This document shows, in pieces, positions 8,243 to 59,370 of a stretch of DNA of 64,000 nt. The DNA lies in assembly GCA_026874595.1 (NCBI GenBank), contig CM049320.1:42046714-42110713 (forward strand), read 5' to 3'. Origin of the DNA: Sipunculus nudus. Its lineage: Eukaryota > Annelida > Sipuncula > Golfingiida > Sipunculidae. A program made the translations under genes and the position numbers. How positions within the stretch are numbered: the stretch's first letter is position 1; every line of letters starts with the position of its first letter. Below the pieces are notes generated by a model that made no database searches, had not been told where the DNA came from, and saw only the letters and a program-made list of their open reading frames with translations.

Positions 8243-11200
8243 GTGAGATTAACCCAATACTTTTGTTAAAATGATGAAGAATGCAGGGCCCTTATATCCC
8301 CTTCGATTATTGTTCGATTTAACGGACTCTTCAGTATAAAGGGGGTTATGAATACATAACATGGAATATGAAATTTAAATTAACGTATAATACCCTTTAT
8401 TCCGACATGCGACGTGCGACATTTGGACTATTACGAACGATGGCGGCACAGGAACGGTTTCAAAATGTTTGAGAGGATTGAATCAGTCAAAGATTGATAA
8501 AGCACGAAAATACCACATGGAAATCATGTGAGGTTAGTCTCAACGCGGGAAACTAACTTCGGGAAGACAGATGGGCTGAGAAGCTTGAATATCGCTCTTG
8601 GACGAACACGCCCGTGTTCCATTGCAGGATGAAAAATGATAACTTTAAATGTTAGTTTTATTAAGTTTACCTCGTTCTCTCCCAGACATCAGAATCCTCC
8701 GGTTTATTGGCGATAAGCGAGGGTACCTAATGACCAACTTTTTCAAATGGGGAGAGGTAATGTTAATAAGGATTAAAATGTCGGTATATGCCTCTATATA
8801 TTGTTGCAAAAAGTTGACCTTATAAAAATGATTCCATTTATGGCGTGTATTCTGTAATTGATGAACAAATCCATAAAAAATGAAGGATGTTAAAACACCA
8901 AGTTTAACAAATGGAATTTGTGATCTTTGTTCGAACGTATCGTTAATAAACTCAAAACAAGTATATGCAGGTCTAATGATAAACGATTGAAAGAGTGCAT
9001 TTTCGATTCTCATTTGTGATTATCCAATAAATGAACATTAAAATCAGTACCTAGACGAATAGTAACCCCAATGAGATTTGTTATTCTCCATGACGGGTCA
9101 AATATATATCATTTATTATTATAAGGATAGTAAAGTGAATTTTATTTGGAAAAAAATGTTTAAAAAAATCTAAATTTATTTAAGAAACTTTTCATGTTAC
9201 CCTTTATGTTTGTATAGGTAAATATACTATTATATGACAAATTCATCCTTAAATGTACAGTTAGAAACCCGTAACACTAAACTGGGTGTTTCTATCGTTT
9301 TACTGCATGGGTCAGGACTTTATTTCATCTGGCAGCTTATGTTAGGAATAAATTTAAGCCTGTCCTTTTAATAAGTACAGGTTAATAGTGTTAAGTTGTA
9401 CATATCTGATGAAAGTACATTCTTAAATATTAAATAACGGTTATATCAAATTTGTAATTGTGTAAGTCGCTAAATTTATATTTTCCGTCCACTGCAATTA
9501 AAAATGGGACATTCTAGGTTGATGATATATTGTTTTTGAGATGGAAACGTGGTGGCAATAATTACATGTAAACTTATTATTTATTTTACTGAACCTCTTA
9601 AATTCTGATAAATTTAATATCAATATCTGCCCCAAGTTAATATGTATATGTGAATGAACACAGCCTCAGCAAAGCCTGTCATGACTGAATCAATAATAAT
9701 TACTTGACGATATGTCAATAAACTTACTAATATTACCAGCTGAAAACCTGAGTTATATTCCCAGATGATCCTTTTGTATGCTCCATGTCTCTCTTGAGCA
9801 TAATTAAGGATATATTAGCGGTTGCACAAAATGTACTATTATTTGTTAGCAAGAGCTCCCGAACACAAAATGTCTTCATCAGCAGTGTCATGCTAAGCTT
9901 GGTTACCAAATCAAAGAAAAAGAATTTTTTTTCCTGTTAACATTGAAATACACTATCATGTGCAGATTTGGTTGGATTTGCCTATTGAGTAATTCTATTA
10001 TGATAATTTATTATAATTAATTTTTCTCCCAGGTATCCTGAGTCGCAACGGCAGAGAATGGAAAGACGTTAGATCCTTCATGTTCAAGGTATTACGGAAT
10101 TTCGGTCTCGGCTCTTCAAAGATGGAGGAAAGAATCAAACAGGAAATAGATTGCTTATCTGAAGAAATAATGAAGACAAACGGCGCTTCGTTTGATCCTT
10201 GGCGTATTCTCCAATGGTCGGTAGGCAACGTCGTAAGAAAGATGGCGACTGGTCAACGAGAAGACCTTACGGAGAAAAAAAGTTCCTCATTAGCTGATCT
10301 GTTTGACAGAATGCTGCTCCATGCTGCCCCTGAAAGTCTCTTGTCACTCTTTCCGTTTTTGTCGTATTTCCCAGGTGACATGTTTGGGTATCAGTCCTTG
10401 AAGGTGAGTTTTAGAAATGTGCTTCTCATATTATCAGTAATTATGTCAGCAGTTACAGAGGAAACCCCATAAAAATTCCAGAAGAAACCTCCATAAAAAA
10501 AACTACAGAGGAACCTCTTATAAAAAAACTACTATGACGTAAACCCAGCTAAAGCTGCAAAGGGAACCCTTCAGTAAAAGATTCAATTCAACAATTCTGT
10601 AGTGATCATCAAAGATTTTATTGTCTGAATATGGGCAATTATTTTGAAATAGCATTATATTAGATATGAGAAAAAAAGTTGTAGATGTTAATGCAAGCTG
10701 ATGAAAATGCAATTTAAAGAGTTAGAAGCTGCACAAGGATAAAGGCGATTATTTATTGAGTACGAAAAAAACAGTTAATGACATAGTTGGGTGAGGGAGG
10801 GTCATGCTTATTGTGTACCATCGAAATTTGCTGGCTTTATTTTGAGGTATATCATTTGTTTCTCTGATGACTCAGCTGCTGTGAAAAGTATTGATCTCGC
10901 AAAACCTGACGATCATGAGGTTTGTTTTATTTGCATCAACTCAGCTCTAATCGGATGTAAAGGTACCAGGTTCCGTGACATTAACTTGGTTTCTGCTATC
11001 GTTAATAACATCACGAATGAATTGTTTTTGAAGCATCACGTTGTTTTTTTTATTTCTTCAAAGTCGATGCCATAATCTTACATGAAAATAAAATGACAGC
11101 GTTATATGTTCTCAATAAGAGTTTCTCAATTGGAGATAAACCCATCCATTTTCTGTGCAAATTATATTAAATTTACATGACAGATTTTTCTGCCTTTTTT

Positions 11201-19156: not shown

Positions 19157-19602
19157 ACTGCTCATACTATTTGTCACATACCTACCATATCAATATTTGA
19201 GGTGTGCATTAGGCTGATTAAAAATTCCAAGCTCTTCCCTCACAAATTTACAATTCAGTTTCGTAGAACGCTTATTTGTTGCGTGAGTGAATATACCTTT
19301 ACTGCTGATCAAACACACCGACAAGCACTCTCAATAATTCACACCGGGAAATCCATTACCACTCAATTACTACAAACTCTTTCTAGGGATAGTTCAGTTA
19401 GGCTGACGACAGGCGCACGTCAGGTGGCCAGTAGGACAAAGCCGTAACGACAGATCATGTATGGAATAGAAGGTCAATGGCGAAAATCACCCTACAAGTT
19501 CATTGCCTTTTTTTATACTCACACTCTTAATATGTTTTATTATTTACAACTCAAATACTGATGAATAGCGAAAGCATGATTTCATTGATACCCGTCTCCC
19601 AG

Positions 19603-20054
19603 CTTGTTTGTCGTCACTGCGAGATTATCCTACACATGAAACTGCGTTCAGTAAAAATGGTATTTGCTACAAAGCAAAGCTTGGTGAAGTTCTCTTCAAA
19701 GTTAATAAGGTATCGTCGAAGATGAATTCAGGAATTCTATCCAACAGAGATGTTCAAGGCGATATGGCTACACAGTATGTTGTACCAAATGTAGTGCACT
19801 ATGTTTGGTTCGGTGCGAATAGAACATTCACCTTTTTAAATTATTTATCTTTTCTCGGGGTGACGAACTTATCAAACCAGAGCAGATCCTGGTTCACGGA
19901 GATGCCGAGCCCGTGGGTAAATGGAGGAGGTCCGCACTCAGTAAGATTCCTGATATCTACTTTGTGAACCGCCAGAGGCCGACACAAGTCATGGGAAAGA
20001 AAATCAAACTGGTTCAACACAGTGCGGATATCGCCAGATATGAAACAATATTAG
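19603..20054 (+). CDS. Glycosyltransferase exon with frame break at 19857-19864
   Basis: The acceptor CCCGTCTCCCAG ends at 19602. The nearest in-frame upstream stop is at 19566 and there is no ATG, so this is an internal exon. The first frame is used to about 19859 and a second frame from about 19862. Both halves carry family motifs (PNVVHYVWFG, then HGDAEPVGKW and HSADIARYE), so the break is a one-base deletion and not an exon boundary. The donor GTAAGA follows at 20055, phase 1. Confidence 0.75.
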
Positions 20055-21495
20055 GTAAGATACCTACATATGTCATTATGTTGCAGGAATTTTATTATGT
20101 TATATTTTAATATAACACCACCGTTTTCCTCATATTAATGGCGAACCTATAATTTGGGGATGACTACACGGTCACAGATAGAGCGTTCTGCCTAATATCA
20201 TAGGTTTACTGGTCAACTTGCCACCAAACCTTTTCTGTAGATTGGTTCCCCCTACAGACTGTCGTCGGAGCAATTTTCTGTCATATTGCCCCCATTACAC
20301 CAGACGTCGGAATTAAGGGTTTCACGCTAGTGTAAAAGAATTCTAACAATAAGCCGAAAAAAAAAAAACATTCACATAGTCAAATATACATGTGCCAATT
20401 TATTATACCTGCATTCACTCTCTCTCCATACAAAAACCGACGTGAGACTGGTATATATGTATATTTATATATTTCAGGTATATCGAACCCGGAACTTCAT
20501 GTATAGTGGGATGTGCTCTGACGACTGAAAAATTGGAACGCCCGTGTTCACACATTTAGAAAAGTATATTTATACATGTAAAGACTGAATACGTGCTCCG
20601 ACTACCGTGATAAACAAAGTTGGAGCTAGGTATACAAAGACAAACCCTTTTGAAGTTCCATTATGCATTATGGTGGTATTTAACTGGAAACTGGTGTGTA
20701 TATATTTCCAGATTATGTTGGCATTTACCTGAATACAATATGTGTATATACATTTATTTCCATATTATGGTGGAATTTACCTGAATACTGATGTATATGC
20801 ATTTCCAGATAATATTGGCATTTACCTGGATACTGATGTGTATATATTTCCAGATTAATGTTGGAATTTACCTGAAGACTGATGTGTATATATTTCCAGA
20901 TTATGTTGACATTTATCTGAATACTGATGTGTATATATTTCCAGAATATGTTGATTTTACCTGAATACTGATGTGTATATATTTTCAGATTATGTTGGCA
21001 TTTATCTTAATATTGATATGTATATTTCCAGATTATGGTGGCATTTACCTGGATACGGACGTCCTGGTACTAAAATCATTCGATGCCCTGAGGGGATACA
21101 ACTTGACCTTGGGAAGACAGTCCAAGTACAGAATAGCCAACGGCATCATTATAGGTCAAATGTTCTCGCCCTTGCTTCGAATGTGGCTGGAGTCGTATTC
21201 AACGTTCAACAGTGATGAATGGGCAATCCACTCAACATTAATACCACACAAACTAGCAGATATATTTCCTAACCTGGTGCATATTGAGGAAGGCACCCTT
21301 ATTAGTCCCGGTTACCGTATAGGTCGCAAATTATACAAACCCCATGCTTATAACTGGACTAACAACTATGCAGTGCATGTATGGAAATCGCTTGGAAAGG
21401 TGCCCCGTGACCCCCAAGAAATCCAAAAAATAGATACTATCTTAGGGGAAATCATGAGATATATCTTTTTTAGTTCGAAGAAAATCAACTTCTAA
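19603..21495 (+). CDS. GT32-like DXD sugar transferase, 5'-incomplete, with apparent frameshift
   Basis: Seen: two exons, 19603-20054 and 21032-21495. The first reads VVPNVVHYVWFG (about 19779-19814), the N-terminal Rossmann motif of Gly_transf_sug proteins. After a break it reads HGDAEPVGKW, then HSADIARYETIL. Exon two starts DYGGIYLDTDV, whose Asp-Thr-Asp at 21052-21060 is the DXD metal and nucleotide-sugar motif, then IANGIIIGQ and a C-terminal domain to the stop at 21493-21495. Known: such enzymes are Golgi type II membrane glycosyltransferases. Odd: at the G4 run 19857-19860 the frame shifts, so one base appears missing between YLSFLG and DELIKPEQ. That is either a lesion or an assembly error. 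No ATG or membrane anchor lies in frame upstream, so at least one 5' exon is missing. Donor sugar and acceptor are unknown. Confidence 0.75.
20712..21031 (+). repeat. Tandem array of ~45 bp units copying splice acceptor plus start of the DXD exon
   Basis: Units begin at 20712, 20764, 20809, 20854, 20900, 20945 and 20989. The real exon at 21032 is the eighth member, and a more worn copy precedes at about 20666. Each unit is a degenerate version of exon start ATTATGxTGGxATTTACCTG, then AATACTGATGTGTATATATT, then TCCAG. The copies therefore carry coding text for DYxGIYLNTD followed by a new acceptor. Spacings are 52, 45, 45, 46, 45, 44 and 43 bp. The later units are not multiples of three and several contain in-frame TGA, so upstream acceptor use would usually break the protein. 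The copies most likely arose by tandem duplication across the intron-exon boundary. Confidence 0.85.
21032..21495 (+). CDS. Glycosyltransferase terminal exon with DXD motif
   Basis: The acceptor TATATTTCCAG ends at 21031. The phase-1 G from the previous exon completes GAT, giving DYGGIYLDTDVLVLKSF. The exon then reads ANGIIIG (second nucleotide-sugar contact region) and WAIHSTLIPHKLADIFP to a lysine-rich C-terminus. AATAAA at 21912-21917 is a possible poly(A) signal. Confidence 0.82.
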
Positions 21496-21499
21496 TCAT

Positions 21500-23750
21500 C
21501 ACATACAGGAAAAGTGAATTTTTAGTAAATGGCTTTTATGGATCCCTTTTCAGAATACTATATCACCTTTGATCCGTATGGCGGCCATTTTGACGGCTAT
21601 ATTAGGTTTTTGATAGATGAAATGAATACATTCATGTATGTTATGTCTAAGAGTTTTCAATGATGAGAATAAGTAAGATCTAAAAATGGTTATTATTGAA
21701 AAGAAATCTTAGTTGGAATGGATATGAAACGATTTTTGTCGATGCTAGAGTGGAAATACGATAAGTTAAATAATTTCCTGGGGGGGGGGGGGGGTTAAAT
21801 ACTGAGCGATATTACCAAACATGAAAACTGGAGGGGATGTGACTGAGACGCAGTAGGCCTAACATCACCAGAAGGAATAACAAAACGGTTTAATGGTCAA
21901 AAAGCAGTACTAATAAATATTTTAAGTGGAGGTAACGCCTCCATTTTTTAAATAATTTAACTACGTATATATGTATATCTGCAGAGTTCCATTCCGGTTT
22001 CGGACTACGTGACAGAGCAGTATCACACGCTTCCTCTCATTTTATATCTGGCGTCAACCAGGCCCGGCGACTGCTGTTTATGCTATCGCCAAAAGATGGC
22101 GCCACAGACTGGTCCTCAAATTAAATTGTCTATATAATACAACAACTCCGTGGATAAATCATAGCCAAGAAAAAGCAAAATATTTGAAAATTCACGCATA
22201 TGTTGGTTGCTGCATGAGTTCAGAGTGTCTGATTATCAGAATATAGGTTTATTTACATATTCTACAATGACTTACTGCAAAATAAATTAAATATATAATT
22301 GCTATTTCTTTCATCTAATCAAACATTATGTGTTCCTTGTTCCAATTACATTTAAACAGTGGTTCATATTTAAATTCAATTCAGGACCAAACGTACGTCC
22401 TTTCATTTACAGGAAAAATGATGTAAAATTACATTTGTAAGCAATATAACAGCCACAGAATCAAATCTAATCCAACATATTCCGATGGCCTGTATAATAT
22501 ATCTGCTGCGTTTATACCTGCACCATTGCTGGATTTAGAAGCCACAGTGCATTTTGGAGAAAAGGACTGCTTTGCCCATAATCTCTAGAGTCGTTATTTT
22601 ATGGGTGTATCCTGCATAGTGTGCGAGGATCATCCCCTCTCAGTTTGCAAAGTTACCTCTGAAGATATTATATCCACTTTCAACTCGTTGTCCTTTTGCA
22701 GCTGTCATGTCAACTGACAACATATAAACTATTTCGCGTGAAAAACGTGCCTCGGGGAAAAATGTCATTTTCTGAATGGTCAAGAACATGTAGCGACGTT
22801 TAAAAAGGAGATAGCTGGCCGAAGTAAAAAGAACAGTACAGGATCCAAGTAAACATAATACATGAATCTGTATAATGAATACATGAACATAACAAGAGGA
22901 ACCCCCCCCCCCCCCACCGGAACATGATGTTATAGTAATAGTCTCTGTTGATAGAGGGAAGCACCATTAAATCCACGTGTTTAGATTTCTGAATTGGTCA
23001 ACTCAATTAATTCTCACTTACTAACATAAGCATGTATTCGTGTACACTAGTATAATCAATACTCCCTAACTTCAAAAAGAAGCAAAACAAGAAAACTAAA
23101 CAAACAAACAAATAATTTGTCAATTTAATTTATACCCCAGATGTGTCTGGACATGTCCCTGTTTTTAAATTACTTGCAAGCTTACATAAAAAAAATAATT
23201 AAAACCACATATTGGCACAGGTTTATTGTACATAAAAAAGCAAAATTTAAGCACAAGGTTGATCTTAAGTCTCAGTAGATCTCAACAATACAGTTAAAAA
23301 TAAACATGACCATCATACACTTATTGCTTACCTCATATATGGTTTAACTGTCGCAGTCTCCTAAATTAAAAAGAAGCGAAAAAAAGCACCCCCTGAACCC
23401 GTAAAGTGGTTTTATCCTTAAATGGTGAATAGCATTTGGCTAGAGGTCACTCACTTATCACATTAGGGAGGGATTTCTATATGGAAAATTTTAAAAATCA
23501 GTCCAGGAGTTGTTTGTATAGTTCGTATATGTAATCCTCGTGCTTTCTCCAGTATTCTTAACGTCAGAACTTCAGTGACAGTCTATTTTTCTACTTGACT
23601 CGGTATGGACCAGGCCTGATTTCTCGAATTCTATAGCCTCCAAGTCCGAGTACAAGACTGAGTCCCTGAAAAACGTAAACTCCTGTCTGGACGCGAGTCC
23701 GCACTCAACTTCTCATGAGACAGAGTAACAGCACTCACTCTCCGCCATGA
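21500..23750. other. No gene seen; G15 and C14 tracts
   Basis: G15 at 21780-21794 and C14 at 22902-22915. The rest is AT-rich without coding signals. Confidence 0.5.
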
Positions 23751-37104: not shown

Positions 37105-37536
37105 TGTTACGACCCATAATGTAATAACCGGCCCATAATGTAATAACGGCCCATATTGCAATAAAAACGACCCATAATGTAATAATGGCCCATCATGTAA
37201 TAAAAACGGCCCATATTGTAATAACCATACCCTGCCCATATTGTAATAAAATCGCATGTGGGTAAAACGGCCCATATTGTAACAAAATCGCAGGTATGTA
37301 AAACGGCCAATAATTTTATAATTCAAATTTCATGCAAATTAACTAAGACAATTCAAATATTGACTTCTCGTGACACGAATGTGTAAGTGAACATACAAGT
37401 ATGAAAAACCACTGGATTACATAATGACTATCTGTTTAAAACGGTGACCAAGCTAATATGAGCGACATATGGCTTTGATTCATGTTTATCCTTTTGTTGA
37501 ATCAGTGTTTAAATAGGATGATAAAGTATTTAAACA

Positions 37537-38203: not shown

Positions 38204-39083
38204 TGGTATTAGATTAAGTGAAATTCCGAAAGGACGGCGAGTACTGGATGCGACCGGGGCCCAGCCGAGGAGCGGTGAGGATTTTCATGGTCGGCCTCCA
38301 TTCAGAGTGGGCGCTCTGCATAATCGGAAGGCTGTGCCCCACAAACAGTATCACGTTTGTATCACAAAAAGGAATGCAAATTGGCGAGTTCTTCCATGTT
38401 ATGACTCAGTAATGGGGATGATTTCACACCCAAGCCTCTCTCAGCCTTCTTCACCCTACCCGCCACCCCAGCCAACCCCCACCCCTCACGGTAAAACACC
38501 CCCCCCCGGTTACCCGCAAATGATCCGTAATAGTAAATGCGTGGAAAAAGTGAAGACTTTACCTCACCTATACTGTAATCAGCATGGTGGGGGCTAAAAT
38601 GGGCAAAAAGGCCAATATTGTAAAAAAATGCAGTTTAGAAGATTATGATTAAATTCGTGTCAAATTTACGTAGCATAAATGTTGACTGTTTCACTTGATT
38701 TCCATTATGACTGCATCTCTTATACCAATGAGGAACCAAAATGGCTATCATTTCAGAAGGTATTCTCAAACGACATATCGCCTTTTAGATTTGGGATTCA
38801 TTCTTGAGCTTAAACATATGTTATTACAATATGGGCCATTTTTCCCACTTCTAGTTTTATTACAATATGGGTAGGGTATGATTATTACATTATGGGTCGT
38901 TTTTATTACAATATGGGCTGTTATAACAATATGGGCCGTTTTTTTATTACATTATGGGTCGTTATTACAGTATGGGCCAGTTTTATTACAATATGGGCAG
39001 GGTATGATTATTACATTATGGGTCGTTTTTATTACAATATGGGCCGTTATTATGGGCCGGTTATTACATTATGGGTCGTAACA
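37105..39083. mobile_element. Foldback-like element with long, internally repetitive inverted ends
   Basis: The left arm (37105-37315) and right arm (38817-39083) are inverted copies made of many 17-25 bp subunits, variants of ATTACAATATGGGCCGTTTT and ATTACATTATGGGTCG. The outermost 33 bp are perfect inverted repeats, and further pairing follows after an 8 bp indel. The middle has two long TA runs (37540-37597, 38141-38201) and no credible ORF. This architecture matches foldback or long-TIR non-autonomous DNA transposons. Confidence 0.8.
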
Positions 39084-57019: not shown

Positions 57020-59370
57020 AAGCTAATTTGAAGAGTACATGCCTAGAGCTGACAAGATAAAGAATGTAACAGATGACAAGGTTCAGGCACGCGTTCAGAG
57101 CTAACACGAAAAGAGAAGAATACGCGTGCGGTGTTGACAGGTTACAGAGAAAAGTGAATGTCCAAAGCTAAGTAGTTAAAAAAAGAGGACATGTCCAAAG
57201 CGAAGTAGTAAAAACAAGAAGAGAACACGTCCAAAGCCAAGTATTGAAAAAAGAAGAGTACACGTCTAGTGCAGACAGGTTATATAGTAGAGTTCACGTT
57301 CACATTCAAGTTGTAAAAAAAAAAAAAGAGTACATGTCCAGAGCTAAGCAGTTAAACTACAAGAGACGAGTTTTAATTGGAGAAGTTTTTATTGAAATTC
57401 GTAACTCATGTTTCAAAATAAAATTTTAGTACTTTTGTTTAGCACCACTTATTATGTATGTTTAAATGTAGGCGCTAAATTAAATGAATAAAATTTAAAT
57501 ATATCCCCAACTGATTAGATATTGAAAAGAGTACAGGTTGATAACACAGAAGACAAAAAGTACACGCCAAGAGATAATAAGTTACAGAAAAGAGGACACA
57601 TCCAAAGCTAAGAAGACGCACAGCCCAGAGCTATCATGATGAAAATAGTGACCAGATCAAAGAAGTGATTACGAAGAGTTACACGATAAAAATGATAAAG
57701 AGAGAAGGTCACGTTCTGAACTAAATTTAAATGTAGTACACGTCTGTAGGTAACGAAATAAGTAGAAGAGTAAACGTCCAGGGCTCAAAAGAGAAACAGA
57801 GGATTTCACGTCTAGAGCATGGAGGATAACAAGAAGAGTAGACCAATATGTTCAGAGTTATAGAGGATAATACACGTCAAAAATGTAAACAGAAGAGGGC
57901 ACATCCACGCTAGGAAGATAAAGTGAGTACAGATCCAGGGGAAAGAATATAGAGAGAAGAATTCATGTCCAGAGTCGATAAGTTAATTCGAGAGTACATG
58001 TCCAGAGGCCAGGATATAAACAGATGAGTACATGTCCAGAGGCTAGGATATAAACAGATGAGTACATGTCCAGAGGCCAGAATATAAACAGATGAGTACA
58101 TGTCCAGAGGCCAGAATATAAACAGATGAGTACATGTCCAGAAGCCAGGATACAAACAGATGAGTACATGTCCAGAGGCAAGGATATAAACAGATGAGTA
58201 CATGTCCAGAGGCCAGAATATAAACAGATGAGTACATGTCCAGAGGCCAGGATATAAACAGATGAGTACATGTCCAGAGACCAGAATATAAATAGATGAG
58301 TACATATCCAGAGGCATGAATATAAACAGATGAGTACATGTTCAGAGGCCAGGATATAAGCAGATGAGTACATGTCCAGAGGCCAGAATATAAACAGATG
58401 AGTACATGTCCAGGGGCAAGGATAAAAACAGATGAGTACATGTCCAGGGACCAGAATGTAAACAGATGAGTACATGTCCAGAGGCAAGGATATAAACAGA
58501 TGAGTACATGTCCACAGGCCAGGATATAAACAGATGAGTACATGTCCAGAGGCAAGAATATAAATAGATGAGTACATGTCCAGAGGCCAGGATATAAACA
58601 GATGAGTAACTGTCCAGAGGCCAGAATATAAACAGATGAGTACATGTCCAGAGGCCAGGATATAAACAGAGTAGTACATGTCCAGAGGCAAGAATATAAA
58701 CAGATGAGTACATGTCCAGATGCAAGGATTATACCGATGAGTACATGTCCAGAGGCAAGGATATAAACAGATGGGTACATGTCCAGAGGCAAGGATATAA
58801 GCAGATGAGTACATGTCCAGAGGCAAGAATATAAACAGATGGGTACATGTCCAGAGGCAAGGATATAAGCAGATGAGTACATGTCCAGAGGCAAGAATAT
58901 AAACAGATGAGTACATGTCCAGAGGCAAGGATATAAACCGATGAGTACATGTCCAGAGGCAAGAATATAAACAGAAATGTACATTTCGAGAATCAATGTA
59001 GAAGCGTAGAGTACATGTCCAGAGTGAATGAGTTAAACGGAAGTGTGCAAGAATAGAAACAGAAGTGTACATGTCCAGAGGCAAGAATATGGACAGAAGA
59101 GTACATTTTCCAGGGCAGGAATATAAACAGAAATATACATGTCAAGAGTCAATACGTTAAATCGAAGAGTACATTTCCAGAGGCACGAATATAAACAGAA
59201 GAGTGCATTCCCAGCAGCAAGAATATAAACAAAGAGTTCACGTCCAGAGGAAAGAATATGAACAGAAGAGGACACCTCCATGCTCAGGAGATAACATGAA
59301 GAATTGAGGTGTCAAAGCTAAGAATACACGTCCAGAGGCAAGAATAGAAAGAAGACTTAACATATCAAGC
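57020..59370 (+). repeat. 34 bp minisatellite with homogeneous core and decayed edges
   Basis: The core (about 57985-58980, near 30 units) repeats every 34 bp. The unit starts with GATGAGTACATGTCCAGAGG and continues CCAGAATATAAACA or CAAGGATATAAACA. Outward on both sides the units drift in length and sequence but keep TACATGTCCAGAG (e.g. GGACATGTCCAAAG at 57187, GTACACGTCTAGTG at 57260, AGTACATTTCCAGAGG at 59168). A 68 bp higher-order dimer is repeated at about 58769-58905. On the minus strand all three frames are free of stops for long stretches because 34 is not a multiple of three. The resulting 373-codon frame is not considered a gene. Confidence 0.9.

Follow-up and report, generated by a model that had tools for sequence, protein, structure and literature searches.

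The 64,000-nucleotide stretch of Sipunculus nudus DNA analysed here (the window) carries on its + strand the downstream part of a glycosyltransferase gene. An open stretch at 19569–20054 (19569 being the start of the open frame) ends in ...ARYETIL at a phase-1 donor, and is followed by a predicted phase-1 intron at 20055–21031 (GTAAGA...TTTCCAG; donor GT 20055–20056, acceptor AG 21030–21031) and by a last exon at 21032–21495 whose stop codon lies at 21493–21495. The exon, which codes for DYGGIYLDTD..., holds 154 open codons, the first of them split by the intron, and with the split codon included its product reads DYGGIYLDTDVLVLKSFD...KKINF*. This product matched PF04488 (Gly_transf_sug, the sugar-binding region with the DXD motif; Pfam, E=6.4e-05) over residues 2–22, with DTD present, the match passing only narrowly (24 bits vs. 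a gathering cut-off of 23). No Pfam family matched the pieces of the upstream open stretch (E 0.1), and no sequence relatives of the gene product were found in the PDB at E 0.1. We take the PF04488 family to be GT32. The upstream stretch contains a single frame change (frame 3 to frame 2) near 19862–19865, which may reflect an error in sequencing, a variant or incipient decay. Elsewhere the window holds a cytochrome P450 gene (7831–13119, + strand), three open stretches of which match PF00067 and which, taken together with the intron structure, points to animal DNA; ARAGORN, run in its bacterial setting, reported no tRNAs in the window.

Directly 5′ of the exon with the DXD motif, eight diverged tandem copies occupy 20656–21031, each made up of a near-copy of the first ~30 exon bases followed by an acceptor-like intron tail (reading GATGTGTATATATTTCCAG in U3, U4 and U5). 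TRF reported a 45-bp unit repeated 6.8 times at 20755–21056 (score 413) and, over the same stretch, a 91-bp double unit repeated 3.4 times (score 434), the longer period suggesting that some of the growth was by double units; a separate repeat search extended the array back to 20651. Cut at their acceptors, the copies U0–U7 measure 56, 52, 45, 45, 46, 45, 44 and 43 bp. All lie on the + strand. The outermost, U0 (20656–20711), is degenerate, with a short extra stretch before its exon-like part, and ends in AG at 20711; U1 (20712–20763) ends in CCAT and has no acceptor AG; U2 (20764–20808), U3 (20809–20853) and U5 (20900–20944) end in AG at 20808, 20853 and 20944, respectively; U4 (20854–20899) ends in AG at 20899 and contains a further AG at 20877 that is out of register with the ladder; U6 (20945–20988) carries a 1-base deletion and ends in AG at 20988; and the tail of U7 (20989–21031) is the putative authentic acceptor. 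We take the exon to be the source of the unit because it is the exon copy that carries the family motif.

The array is real and far beyond chance. When the first 32 exon bases were scanned against both strands of the whole window (threshold ≥22/32 identity), seven matches fell in the intron, whereas 1000 dinucleotide shuffles of the intron averaged 0.001 matches and never gave more than 1, and no match at this threshold occurred elsewhere in the window on either strand besides the exon itself; U6, with its deletion, was missed at 22/32. The exon-derived parts of the eight copies agree with the exon at 22–26 of 30–31 columns, and with one another, in pairwise comparison, at 21–28 of 30–31 columns (70–90%). 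Blastn of 19401–22600 at E 1e-4 found no other copy of the gene or array within the window, and tblastn of the window at E 1 found no second copy of either, returning only the array itself and a weak, chance-like opposite-strand match (E 0.11). TRF and the scan against shuffles thus confirm the tandem array that a first-pass annotation of this DNA had noticed upstream of the DXD exon, and its proposal that the minisatellite may have originated over an intron-exon boundary is supported. The acceptor coordinates that it had listed (20711, 20808, 20853, 20899, 20944, 20988 and 21031) are exactly the AGs that we found, and its picture of a ladder of acceptor-like sites, most of them leading into a near-copy of the codons for DYGGIYLDTD, is borne out. 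Its claim that each copy carries a TTCCAG-type acceptor holds in part: an intact acceptor AG precedes six of the eight copies (all of the listed sites except 21031), whereas U0 and U2 have none in front (TTCCATT before U0, where the AG at 20655 is out of register, and CCAT before U2), and the 20988 site has TTTTCAG as its acceptor.

Other tandem repeats occur in the window. A 26-bp repeat lies at 10454–10532 in an intron of the P450 gene, shortly after the donor; since it seemed at first to overlap a P450 exon, we considered it as a second boundary repeat, but rejected it because the P450 frame runs into a donor, GTGAGT, at 10404, which places the array ~50 bp inside the intron. A large minisatellite at 57924–59274 is built of a 34-bp unit (~30 copies at 57992–59024) with higher-order periods of 68 and 102 bp, and its − strand contains a long, repetitive open frame. 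A possible inverted pair is formed by two sets of tandem arrays ~1.5 kb apart, at 37109–37312 and 38855–39066, whose consensus units, GGCCCATAATGTAATA and TATTACATTATGGGCC, are apparent reverse complements.

The seven acceptors of the ladder are alike, each with C at −3 and 9/16 pyrimidines from −20 to −5, and 25 other intron AGs (20080–20655) have between 4 and 12 pyrimidines (mean 8.2); since the seven resemble one another and are no stronger than many other intron AGs, 21031 does not stand out by these motifs. A YTNAY motif with no intervening AG also lies 15–35 nt upstream of every acceptor in the ladder, and each of the six decoys has at least one at 17–29 nt. In U2–U6 the motif at −17 is CTGAT, which lies within the copied stretch of DTD codons (ACTGAT, where the exon reads ACGGAC), and acceptors 20808, 20853 and 20988 have a further one, TTTAC at −29, derived from the copied IYL codons. 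This motif is loose, however, with 35 occurrences in the 977-nt intron, 16 of them in the 601 nt that precede the array, or about one per 40-nt gap by background, so that its presence alone is no evidence. The argument for a branch point rests instead on spacing: from AG 20988 to AG 21031 there are 43 nt, all of them repeat copy U7. Splicing usually uses the nearest AG downstream of the branch point, and if this rule holds here, the branch point for 21031 would lie within U7, where YTNAY-type motif matches with no AG between them and the acceptor mark candidate adenosines at 21004, 21010 and 21016, all within the exon-derived part. The branch point of the authentic acceptor is therefore probably in duplicated, mainly exon-derived sequence. 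A bolder extension, which we regard as speculative and unlikely, is that copied coding sequence has taken over part of the splice signal: the branch point would sit in worn copies of the IYL/DTD codons, every unit would form a complete 3′ splice site in itself, duplicated along with the array, and the productive fraction of the mRNA would be set by copy number. RNA of 20640–21070 folds somewhat better than shuffled sequence (z = −2.04; 3/100 shuffles as good); we rejected a structure that hides the decoys, taking this excess to reflect self-complementary TATATA repeats.

The decoys lie 320 (20711), 223 (20808), 178 (20853), 132 (20899), 87 (20944) and 43 bp (20988) from 21031, and their phase is broken by the unit lengths of 52, 46, 44 and 43 bp. 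Continued from the upstream frame, translation stops at 20789 from acceptor 20711, at 20856 from both 20808 and 20853, and at 20962 from both 20899 and 20944, the only two decoys in the right phase; from 20988, which is out of frame, it stops at 21213. Premature stops thus follow from all six decoys and fall within the array for five of them. Among the 33 intron AGs from 20061 to 21031, only 21031 attains the natural stop at 21493, the out-of-register AG at 20877 running into a stop at 20880, and intron retention leads to an early stop as well. On our best reading of these frames, productive mRNA comes from 21031, the site that we infer to be used, and use of a decoy would be unproductive.

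We propose that the array is a minisatellite that arose by a ~45-bp tandem duplication spanning an intron's 3′ border in a GT32-like animal glycosyltransferase gene, of the kind known as a ‘mirage’, in which 21031 is the productive acceptor and the decoys are tolerated, and we consider this account quite probable. The first duplication would have fused the opening ~30 bases of the exon with the final ~15 of the intron; the unit would afterwards have multiplied to eight copies through slippage or unequal exchange, in part as 91-bp double units, and these copies would then have decayed through substitutions and small indels. The full protein end would require splicing at 21031, the upstream copies being tolerated decoys whose use, if any, would yield mRNA with a premature stop.

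Two alternatives would give the ladder a function. The first-pass annotation had suggested that alternative acceptors switch between extended and truncated proteins, and two of the six decoys (20899 and 20944) are indeed in the right phase. Both of these, however, stop at 20962, the other decoys stop too, and among the 33 AGs only 21031 reads through; because neither the six decoys nor the other upstream AGs reach the natural stop, the extended-product idea fails for this sequence, and while it could be revived by a haplotype that lacks the 20962 stop, we give such a switch next to no credence. The same premature stops would suit a regulatory brake, in which frequent use of decoys sends early-stop mRNAs to degradation and copy number tunes glycosyltransferase output. 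This reading gains from the six intact acceptor AGs, each with C at −3, at least one YTNAY 17–29 nt upstream and as many pyrimidines as the authentic acceptor, and from the premature stop that every decoy brings. Against it, one acceptor motif has been lost and those in the array are not significantly conserved. Copies U1–U7 have a mean divergence from one another of 0.18 substitutions per site (JC). In U0–U7 the acceptor heptamer is changed in 2/56 cells vs. 34/304 in the other columns (Fisher p=0.09); with eight copies, the heptamer is not significantly better conserved than the rest of the unit and gives no clear sign that selection has kept the acceptors. The published lancelet cases (PMC3087553, PMC3902484) suggest undisturbed splicing, and we judge a brake to be rather improbable.

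The whole locus might also be a pseudogene, in which case the array and its acceptors would be immaterial. The shift of frame within the upstream stretch, the lack of a delimited start exon and decoys that yield stops only are in keeping with this, whereas a sequencing error may account for the shift and the last exon keeps its 154 open codons and the family motif. To gauge what that open frame is worth, we set it against a neutral expectation for a 462-bp stretch at the array's mean depth of 0.091 substitutions per site, with an indel rate taken from 4 indels counted by eye in U1–U7. A neutral last exon would be expected to have gained 2.2 stops (P0 = 0.11) at the array's depth and 5.8 frameshifts (P0 = 0.003) if indels had come as often as in the array; halving the depth raises P0 to 0.33 (stops) and 0.056 (frameshifts), and with a tenfold lower indel rate P0 for frameshifts is 0.56. 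The argument from frame preservation is weak because P0 is 0.11 for stops alone and rises at half the depth or at a lower indel rate, and the numbers hint, without proving, that the gene remained under constraint while the array decayed. Against constraint stands the change near 19862–19865, which could mark a young pseudogene or a wrong base call. We think a pseudogene unlikely, if deserving of some weight; it is compatible with a minisatellite origin, so that its odds overlap with those of the account that we favour. A false duplication in the assembly has a precedent in a mirage that was aberrantly assembled in a draft genome (PMC3087553), but the copies here differ by many substitutions and indels, unlike duplicated reads, and we regard such an artefact as very improbable.

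This intron offers a natural test of acceptor choice, with seven nearly identical acceptors one after another from which the splicing machinery has to select. Undisturbed splicing would reveal how many duplicated acceptors a gene can accommodate; disturbed splicing would turn copy number into a simple dial for expression. In either case the array adds an example of a splice-boundary-copying repeat to the genes named in PMC3087553 and PMC3902484.

The first-pass annotation had regarded the structure as not previously described, yet the lancelet ‘mirages’ are such structures: they are minisatellite-like tandem duplications of an intron/exon boundary in the globins BflGb6 and BflGb9, Adh3 and troponin C (PMC3087553, PMC3902484), and imperfect tandem repeats also lie over splice sites in lancelet PGBD5 (PMC3902484). 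The BflGb6 units comprise the 3′ end of an intron and the 5′ part of the next exon, measure 150–160 bp, are 81–100% identical and number 6 and 3 in two haplotypes, whereas the Adh3 mirage has units of 10–72 bp and reported somatic instability (PMC3087553). Many, not all, of the lancelet units hold AG/GT signals, RT-PCR suggested that regular splicing continues, and mirages were proposed as a step to intron gain (PMC3087553); the Adh and troponin C mirages are named as being without aberrant mRNAs (PMC3902484). In the literature searched we found no case of a boundary-spanning mirage outside lancelets, which is weak evidence, and the cases that we read of in PMC3087553 and PMC3902484 are all from lancelets, although host group stands outside the anatomical definition.

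The abalone TSSK1-like gene, with a 27-bp minisatellite unit in its intron 3, offers a likeness in that an invertebrate gene there too carries an intronic tandem repeat, but inclusion of exon sequence is not stated in the available text (PMC6905558), whereas the array here includes it. Where introns are gained through duplicated AG/GT proto-splice sites, splice signals are similarly doubled inside a gene; here, in contrast, no new intron is proposed and the donor of the intron lies outside the unit. With the lancelet mirages the correspondence is closer, since the unit alignment and the exon-start matches show tandem units that join an intron end to the adjoining exon start, and splice signals occur in many, not all, units (here six of eight copies are preceded by an intact AG). 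Compared with BflGb6, the unit here is shorter (~45 bp, within the span given for Adh3) and the copies are more diverged (70–90% alike in the exon-derived part), and whereas splicing and length variation were examined in lancelets, the array here is known from the sequence of one haplotype. On anatomical grounds, as the letters themselves present it, the array is a mirage, with a short unit and worn copies.
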